Source of the DNA: Candidatus Nitrosopumilus sp.
GTDB lineage: Archaea > Thermoproteota > Nitrososphaeria > Nitrososphaerales > Nitrosopumilaceae
Reading direction: 5' to 3'
Assembly (NCBI GenBank): GCA_028448965.1
Contig: JAONQT010000003.1
Coordinates: 1 to 56,056, forward strand
Length of the DNA: 56,056 nt
The translations under genes were made by a program, and so were the position numbers. The notes beneath the pieces were generated by a model. The model saw only the letters and a list, made by a program, of their open reading frames with translations, ran no database searches and had not been told where the DNA came from. The stretch's first letter is position 1; the number at the start of each line of letters is the position of its first letter. Of this stretch, positions 1 through 41,103 are shown in pieces.

Positions 1-594
1 TGCAATGAGACAACCGCCGCCTTCTTCTTCAGATTCTTGAGTAGCAACAACTGGTTCTACAACAGGTTCTACAACAGGTTCTACAACTGGTTCTACAACT
101 GGTTCTACAACAGGTTCTACAACAGGTTCTACAACTGGTTCTACAACAGGTTCTACAACAGGTTCTACAACTTCAGAATGTGTTTGTTCTTTAGATTCTT
201 GAACTATAATCAATCCTTTCATCCAAGGATGAATCATATCAAAGTAAGCAAATTCACCAACATTTTCTGGTGTCCATTGAGCAGAGTCACCTGGTGCAAG
301 CATTCCTGAATTAAATTCTGTTCCAATAACATCATCAGATGGAACTCCTGAAGAAAAAGTGTGTGATACACTATCTGTATTTGAAAATATTACAATACTA
401 CCAACATAAACTGTTACAGTACTTGGATTGTAACATCCTTCTTCTGTAACTTCACAACCAGGACCTGAACCAGAACCAGGTATTGGGTTAATTGTAACTT
501 CATGGTGATCTGCAAAAGCATCAGGTGTAATTGAAATCATGCTTATTGCTATAGTAAATAATAAAAAGATTGAGCTTATTGCTTTAGTCTTCAT
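1..594 (-). CDS. Secreted plastocyanin-like protein with VVEP-repeat linker (3' end cut by window)
   Basis: The ATG lies at 592-594 and 198 codons are visible before the window edge. Residues 1-28 form a signal peptide ending in AFA, followed by a cupredoxin-like domain (about 30-135). His78 (SHTF) and the YFDMIHPWM stretch (117-125) match the copper loop of archaeal plastocyanins, but Asp119 stands where the copper-ligand cysteine belongs. C47 and C54 may form a disulfide. Residues 143-182 are ten VVEP-type repeats; then comes an acidic GGGCLIA segment, the start of the C-terminal domain seen whole in the 655-1608 and 36768-37511 proteins. Family knowledge: cupredoxins of this type carry electrons in ammonia oxidisers. 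Inference: without Cys it is probably not a blue copper protein. It lies 60 nt downstream of the 655-1608 gene on the same strand. Confidence 0.8.
   Translation of the reverse strand, partial: MKTKAISSIFLLFTIAISMISITPDAFADHHEVTINPIPGSGSGPGCEVTEEGCYNPSTVTVYVGSIVIFSNTDSVSHTFSSGVPSDDVIGTEFNSGMLAPGDSAQWTPENVGEFAYFDMIHPWMKGLIIVQESKEQTHSEVVEPVVEPVVEPVVEPVVEPVVEPVVEPVVEPVVEPVVEPVVATQESEEEGGGCLIA
49..168. repeat. Ten tandem 12-bp coding repeats
   Basis: Ten copies of the 12-mer AAC(A/T)GGTTCTAC stand in direct tandem. They vary only at the fourth base. On the minus strand they encode the Val-Val-Glu-Pro linker of the plastocyanin-like protein. Units are multiples of three and in frame, so copy-number change would only alter linker length. 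Confidence 0.95.
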
Positions 595-33621: not shown

Positions 33622-33672
33622 TGAAACCAATTCAATCAAATGGATATTAAAAGATTGTTTGAAAATTGAAAA

Positions 33673-33789
33673 ATGCCAGCACTGTTGCTTCCCAAGAGCT
33701 CTCGCATCTTAGTAACACAACAGCGCTATCAGGTTTGACTTCTAAGTTCGGAATGGGATTAGGTCGCACCCTGACGCTATGGCCGGCTT
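33673..33789 (-). rRNA. rrf: 5S ribosomal RNA
   Basis: The minus strand holds a 5S-like sequence of about 117 nt. Helix I is formed by GCCGGC (5') and GCTGGC (3'), and the conserved loop region CCCATTCCGAACTTAGAAGTCAAACC is present around 33735-33760. Exact ends are uncertain by a few bases. It is not next to 16S or 23S genes in the window, so the 5S gene is unlinked, as in other ammonia-oxidising archaea. Confidence 0.92.
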
Positions 33790-33853
33790 GAAAATCATAC
33801 CATAATTCTAGTGTATTAACGTAACGACAGATTTGAAATCTACTCAAAATAGG

Positions 33854-40260: not shown

Positions 40261-40310
40261 AATAGATACTAAATACAAACCAAAATAAATCCAATGTAGT
40301 GAATTTTGAT

Positions 40311-40916
40311 ATGGAGTTTGTGAAAGAATTTGTGACCTTTTTACATCAAAAAGGGATAATAAAATTTGGTAATTTTACACTAGCCAGTGGAAAAAGCAGT
40401 TCATATTATGTTGATTTAAGATTAGTTCCAAGTTATCCTCATGAATTTAGAATGATGGTAAAATATCTGGAAAATCAAATTACAGAAGAAATAGGATTAG
40501 AAAATTTTGAAAGTATTGTTTCAGTTCCAACAGGAGGATTAATTATTGGATCAGCATTAGCAATTGAAACACTAAAACCACTAATCTATGTTAGAAGTAA
40601 ACCAAAAGATTATGGTACTTCAAAATCAGTTGAAGGAAAAATTCATGATGGAATGAAAGTTGTAATGATAGATGATGTTGCAACTACTGGCGGTTCAGTT
40701 GTGAATGCAATTAACTCATTAACAGAAGTAAATGTTCCAGTAAAAGATGCATATGTAATTGTAGATAGAATGGAGGGTGCCAAAGAAGTTCTTGCAGAAT
40801 TGGGAGTAAAGATGCATTCAATTCTAGATATATTACAAATTGCAGAAGTATTGTATGAGCAAAAAATGATTGAAGTAGAAATTTTAGATAAAGTGAAAAA
40901 ACAGATTAGTAAATAA
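40311..40916 (+). CDS. pyrE: Orotate phosphoribosyltransferase
   Basis: About 201 residues from ATG 40311; an in-frame GTG at 40299 would add four. The PRPP-binding motif VVMIDDVATTGGSV, the flexible-loop Lys-rich stretch YVRSKPKDYGTSKSVEG and the start FGNFTLASGKSSSYYVDLR are diagnostic. It joins orotate to PRPP in UMP synthesis. The OMP decarboxylase is not adjacent. Confidence 0.94.
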   Translation: MEFVKEFVTFLHQKGIIKFGNFTLASGKSSSYYVDLRLVPSYPHEFRMMVKYLENQITEEIGLENFESIVSVPTGGLIIGSALAIETLKPLIYVRSKPKDYGTSKSVEGKIHDGMKVVMIDDVATTGGSVVNAINSLTEVNVPVKDAYVIVDRMEGAKEVLAELGVKMHSILDILQIAEVLYEQKMIEVEILDKVKKQISK

Positions 40917-40921
40917 ATTCT

Positions 40922-40986
40922 GGCAGCTCAGACAAATGCCTTCCAATCATCAATTTCAGATATAACTCTGATTCTTCATTGCAGCC
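40922..40986 (-). ncRNA. C/D-box sRNA (rRNA or tRNA methylation guide), candidate
   Basis: On the minus strand the order is: stem GGCTGC (40981-40986), C box ATGAAGA (40973-40979, one mismatch to RUGAUGA), 13-nt guide, D' box CTGA (40956-40959), 3-nt spacer, C' box TGATGA (40947-40952), 15-nt guide, D box CTGA (40928-40931), stem GCTGCC. The outer stem can form five of six pairs. Size, box spacing and the short D'-C' gap fit archaeal C/D sRNAs. A TATA-like box lies about 25 nt before the 5' end. The two guides would direct 2'-O-methylation; targets were not identified. Confidence 0.65.
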
Positions 40987-41007
40987 AATAATTTGTGTAT
41001 TGACTCA

Positions 41008-41015
41008 TTTTAAAA
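41008..41015 (-). promoter_or_regulatory. TATA-like box for the C/D sRNA
   Basis: TTTTAAAA, 22-29 nt before the predicted sRNA 5' end at 40986 and downstream of tRNA-Met on the same strand. The spacing is that of an archaeal TATA box. Confidence 0.45.
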
Positions 41016-41029
41016 CTAATTGAAAATAA

Positions 41030-41103
41030 TGGGCCCGAAGGGCTTTGATCCCTTGGCTCACCGGTTATGAGCCGGTTACTCTACCAGGCTGAGTTACGGG
41101 CCC
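41030..41103 (-). tRNA. tRNA with CAT anticodon (elongator Met or Ile2)
   Basis: 74 nt. Acceptor GGGCCCG/CGGGCCC, anticodon stem ACCGG/CCGGT with loop CTCATAA, T-stem AAGGG/CCCTT. The T-loop reads ATCAAAG, with A at position 54 in place of U. CCA is not encoded. G1:C72 and the lack of a third G:C pair of initiator type (29:41 is C:G) argue against initiator tRNA. Whether C34 is modified to read AUA (Ile2) cannot be told from DNA. Confidence 0.88.

Follow-up and report, generated by a model that had tools for sequence, protein, structure and literature searches.

Does the short interval between pyrE and a tRNA-Met gene on a contig of the marine ammonia-oxidizing archaeon Candidatus Nitrosopumilus hold a gene of its own, and what would its product do? 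An earlier note, made from the letters of the window (the whole stretch of 56,056 nt analysed here), had placed a C/D-box sRNA there; this reading is supported by conserved boxes, complementarity to 23S rRNA in the N+5 register, a covarying closing stem, a promoter-like element and the RNP proteins encoded in the genome. We consider it nearly certain that the locus encodes an archaeal dual-guide box C/D sRNA; it is a genuine and previously unannotated gene for a well-known, ordinary kind of RNA. The proposed position is also borne out, the sRNA lying between the pyrE stop codon (40916) and tRNA-Met (from 41030) and overlapping neither. The features are the following.

40922 to 40986, minus strand: C/D box sRNA gene, predicted RNA of about 65–68 nt (ordered boxes and covariance-model match)
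40981 to 40986, minus strand: 5′ arm of the closing stem, GGCTGC; the stem covaries
40973 to 40979, minus strand: box C, ATGAAGA; A or G, not U, at position 5 in relatives
40960 to 40972, minus strand: D′ guide ATCAGAGTTATAT, 9 Watson-Crick pairs with 23S UAACUCUGA in helix 69; predicted N+5 target equivalent to E. coli A1912
40956 to 40959, minus strand: box D′, CTGA
40944 to 40950, minus strand: box C′, ATGATTG, in the conserved register (comparison with relatives)
40932 to 40943, minus strand: D guide GAAGGCATTTGT, 10 Watson-Crick pairs with 23S CAAAUGCCUU; predicted N+5 target equivalent to E. coli A1938
40928 to 40931, minus strand: box D, CTGA
40922 to 40927, minus strand: 3′ arm of the closing stem, GCTGCC; the stem covaries
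41008 to 41015, minus strand: TATA-like promoter element TTTTAAAA, 22–29 nt upstream of the stem
40299 to 40916, plus strand: pyrE (name taken from the earlier note), convergent neighbour whose stop codon lies 5 nt away from the 3′ end of the sRNA
41030 to 41103, minus strand: tRNA-Met (CAT), upstream neighbour on the strand of the sRNA

Read along the minus strand, the order is GGCTGC-A-ATGAAGA-ATCAGAGTTATAT-CTGA-AATTG-ATGATTG-GAAGGCATTTGT-CTGA-GCTGCC; the 3′ arm of the stem begins directly after the last A of box D, with its G at 40927. The window contains this ordered arrangement once, and none of 40 Markov-resampled windows contains it; the comparison is supporting only, as the pattern was written after the locus had been seen. 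Searches against Rfam returned nothing for the locus at gathering thresholds, and its matches at relaxed thresholds are almost exclusively to C/D families. The covariance model described below matches 40920–40987 in the organism's own genome with an E value of 5.6e-20, which is so by construction since the window sequence is in the model seed. The genome itself encodes fibrillarin, Nop5 and L7Ae-family proteins.

All four boxes are present in the order C, D′, C′, D that the earlier note had given, but its placing of C′ (TTGATGA, 40947–40953) is out of register: in relatives the TGA stands at a fixed distance from the D guide, which gives ATGATTG. In one relative (L007), ATGATGATTG follows straight after CTGA; the earlier register would leave no loop there, the conserved register leaves 3 nt. 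The D′ guide keeps the 13 nt first assigned to it, whereas the D guide is 12 nt and not 15 nt long because box C′ sits 3 nt further on. The kink-turn core has an exact box D (CTGA) next to the closing stem, and box C has one departure from RUGAUGA, an A for U at position 5, where relatives likewise have A or G. In kink-turn geometry this position faces the U of box D; from what is established about the motif, an A-U or G-U pair would take the place of the usual U-U, and both sheared G-A pairs would be retained. The internal motif consists of an exact D′ (CTGA) and a degenerate C′, which in the window is weak (ATGATTG, with G6 altered) and in relatives reads RTGATGT or ATGAAGA, the TGA being kept.

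The closing stem claimed by the earlier note is present as GGCTGC/GCTGCC and covaries in relatives. Thermodynamic folding alone is unremarkable for the sRNA (z −0.79). In the window five of the six stem pairs form and one is a U-U mismatch; it falls on the inner position third from the boxes, which is often mismatched in Nitrosopumilaceae. Over seven stem pairs in an alignment of 29 sequences, standard pairs form at 86%, and five of the seven pairs show two-sided changes; there are 23 cells with such changes against 7.3 ± 2.3 in shuffled alignments, which is also clearly above every slid version. The covariation score behaves likewise (0.281, against 0.118 ± 0.019 when shuffled and at most 0.139 when slid), and the variants among relatives include GGCAGC/GCTGCC, GACGAC/GTCGTC, GGCGTC/GACGCC and GGTGCC/GGCACC.

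The earlier note had named the lack of the four boxes in close relatives as a finding that would refute the sRNA; their conservation in fact extends far beyond such relatives. With a 91-nt query, BLAST against 61 genomes found the sRNA in 29 of the 36 genomes of the same genus (E below 1e-11), along with weaker matches in further families of that order. Twenty-nine diverse copies served as the seed of a covariance model; of 200 genomes sampled evenly over the phylum, 129 have a match to it with E ≤ 0.01. Many of these matches have E values between 1e-10 and 1e-20, and some in families outside the order are near 1e-13. A pattern scan of species genomes yielded at least 120 stretches; among the 80 matches listed, all belong to Thaumarchaeota/Nitrososphaeria or to unassigned archaea, the genera being Nitrosopumilus, Nitrosarchaeum, Nitrosopelagicus, Nitrosotenuis, Nitrosotalea, Cenarchaeum and Nitrososphaera. 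The pattern-found set comprises 134 distinct upstream contexts and includes loci from a pattern that fixes parts of the guides and boxes, so that part of its invariance is built in; free of this bias are the sets obtained with BLAST and with the covariance model, the seed of the latter also containing pattern-found members. One match (L064) is a chance match without boxes, and viral contigs held no copies of the sRNA. Conservation covers the boxes, the stem and those parts of the guides that pair, whereas flanks and neighbours vary. Copies in distant families still have RTGARGA, or something close to it, and AAGGCATTTG before D; most of them also have the D′ guide core CAGAGTTA. As judged from sequence comparison, conservation at the level of genus, class and phylum, together with the covariation of the stem, confirms that the locus is beyond chance.

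What, then, would the two guides recognize? The organism's own assembly (54% complete) has no 16S or 23S gene, and the target search was therefore made on the rRNA of relatives; a lone 5S rRNA gene lies in the window at 33671–33790 on the minus strand. Positions 2–11 of the D guide form 10 Watson-Crick pairs with 23S CAAAUGCCUU, and positions 4–12 of the D′ guide form 9 with UAACUCUGA in helix 69, position 5 being paired in both. The earlier note had suggested looking for complementarity of 9–12 nt; 10 and 9 bp are thus found ahead of D and D′, in the N+5 register, and both pairings recur in the 23S rRNA of 12 of 12 relatives, with a target segment identical in all 12. Matches elsewhere are weaker, with at best 7 pairs in 16S (oriented sequences) and at best 6 in the four tRNAs of the window. 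Shuffled guides equal the real match on 23S in 0.6% of cases for D (10 pairs) and in 4% for D′ (9 pairs), each match alone being only moderately improbable; none of 4,000 shuffled guide pairs had both sites within 40 nt. Relatives have either T or A at guide position 1, beside D, opposite a C with which neither can pair; a guide constrained in its paired part alone would be expected to vary in this way.

Guide position 5 lies opposite A2040 (D) and A2014 (D′) of the 23S rRNA of one relative (G017), sites which are 26 nt apart and which we take to be E. coli A1938 and A1912 from the sequence of helix 69 and the spacing to m5U1939. A1912 has been named as part of helix 69, and helices 68–71 are a known hotspot of archaeal methylation with predicted sites around A1912 (PMC4644070). 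Among loci found without fixed spacing, the D′ register leads to A1912 in 34 (mostly of this genus) and to A1913 in 16 (other families), because the latter have one nucleotide fewer before D′; a shift of the D′ target by one nucleotide between lineages is thus predicted. In some copies from distant families (L219–L222), the D guide is retained and the D′ guide has given way to a TACTCCCGA-like stretch with its complement in the 5′ strand of helix 69, that is, one guide has been turned over within one target helix.

In the proposed mechanism, transcription from the TATA-like box would yield an RNA of about 65 nt, in which the closing stem with boxes C and D would form a kink-turn and D′/C′ a kink-loop, both bound by L7Ae; Nop5 and fibrillarin would then join. 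In domain IV of 23S rRNA the guides would pair with two adjacent stretches, one in helix 69 and one in the strand leading into helix 71, and fibrillarin would methylate the 2′-OH opposite guide position 5, at A1938 (D) and A1912 (D′). The sRNA is very probably a guide for methylation at two closely spaced positions in the ribosomal RNA core, and binding at both sites may in addition have a chaperone effect.

Other explanations start from the neighbours of the locus. It abuts both the stop codon of pyrE and the tRNA, as might a conserved cis-element of either (a terminator, a leader or a protein site) that is not an sRNA at all; however, the element persists beside other neighbours in other families, where synteny is lost and boxes and guides are retained, its stem covaries and both guides match 23S rRNA, which makes such an element extremely improbable. 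A second proposal accepts the sRNA and concerns its origin: archaeal tRNA-sRNA dicistrons are known (PMC7994747), and in most of the genus a tRNA-Met gene on the strand of the sRNA precedes it by about 44 nt, so that the sRNA might be released from a tRNA-Met precursor, TTTTAAAA then being spacer and not promoter. Only about 20% of the archaeal C/D genes studied carry such a promoter element (PMC7994747). The TATA-like box is at the right distance from the stem, as the earlier note had stated, and positions −28 to −23 are 96–100% A/T across 134 distinct upstream regions. This A/T-rich element keeps its distance to the sRNA although the tRNA is 100–260 nt away in Nitrosotalea and others, and it is still present at loci whose tRNA lies beyond 1.3 kb (L017, L155) or was not found (L009). 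Since the element accompanies the sRNA even without a tRNA close by, a promoter of its own is likely and co-transcription with the tRNA less so; we regard the dicistronic origin as unlikely.

The last proposal leaves the gene as it is and changes the function of its product, which would be a C/D-like RNA acting mainly as a folding chaperone that joins the strands of helix 69 and helix 71, without directing methylation. Such a role has been proposed for sRNAs of this kind (PMC4644070), and two guides on sites 26 nt apart speak for it; yet both guides keep the Watson-Crick pair at position 5, and the predicted target of the D guide equals a nucleotide methylated in eukaryotes. A role as chaperone alone thus appears very unlikely to us; neither role excludes the other.

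The surroundings of the sRNA in relatives offer some further observations. Upstream of the copy in L009 (genome G013), at the place of the relatives' tRNA-Met, lies a degraded-looking remnant, AAAGCCCTTTTGACCCAT, in which BLAST finds no tRNA. Loci of the Nitrosotalea type (for example, L069 and L106) have about 680 nt between pyrE and the sRNA, room for a gene absent in Nitrosopumilus. In L222, a second C/D sRNA-like match (106–151, plus strand; Rfam sR11, 33.1 bits, sub-threshold and cut by the end) follows directly after the sRNA, which suggests a tandem pair of sRNAs in that genome.

Among the papers searched, none reports C/D sRNAs from Nitrosopumilus or from ammonia-oxidizing archaea. The archaeal sR families (PMC4644070, PMC7994747) share with the present sRNA the size, the C-D′-C′-D order, the short closing stem, the protein set, two guides of 12–13 nt and N+5 targets in the known 23S hotspot. 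In contrast to them, it reaches the threshold of no Rfam family, and at position 5 of its box C the U is replaced by A or G. Archaeal C/D sRNA guides are described as fast-evolving (PMC7994747), and published comparisons stress rapid guide change, whereas here the paired guides are conserved over much of the phylum, a depth of conservation that is unusual for an archaeal C/D sRNA.

The eukaryal guide RNAs include a close match for one of the two guides: the D guide and box D (AGGCAUUUGUCUGA) coincide letter for letter over 14 nt with the Rfam consensus of U15/SNORD15 (RF00067), and U15, yeast snR13 and plant AtU15 have the same target nucleotide as that predicted for the D guide. The SNORD15 gathering score is missed (19 bits against 75), only the guide and the D box match, in the 3′ part of a model of 146 positions, and the other half of SNORD15 does not resemble the D′ guide found here. 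In eukaryotes, human Am3764/yeast Am2281 (U15/snR13) and Am3739/Am2256 (U46/snR63) are 25 nt apart (PMC8817022, PMC5199042). This spacing corresponds to A1938 and A1913, and by the N+5 rule and the spacing of the segments the predicted D target agrees with the equivalent of human Am3764. The predicted D′ target lies in the helix 69 loop that yeast snR63 and human U46 modify; lineages whose D′ tail is one nucleotide shorter are predicted to reach the same nucleotide as these, A1913, whereas in the window and the genus it is the neighbouring A1912.

Could the sRNA, then, go back to a guide RNA already present in the ancestor that archaea and eukaryotes share, one which also gave rise to U15/snR13 and, via the D′ site, perhaps to the function of snR63/U46, the ammonia-oxidizing lineages later moving the second methylation from A1913 to A1912? 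We think this unlikely; the shared letters of the D guide are dictated by a universally conserved target, so that convergence would give the same letters as common descent. A survey of snoRNAs traceable to the eukaryotic ancestor lists U15, and those for which it finds an archaeal counterpart are very few; sR12/snR70 and some others are discussed in this respect, U15 is not (PMC3511168). With the U15 target retained over much of an archaeal phylum, the present guide RNA would be a further candidate for such a counterpart, and for the ammonia-oxidizing archaea themselves the sRNA yields exact predicted methylation sites at the interface of the ribosomal subunits.
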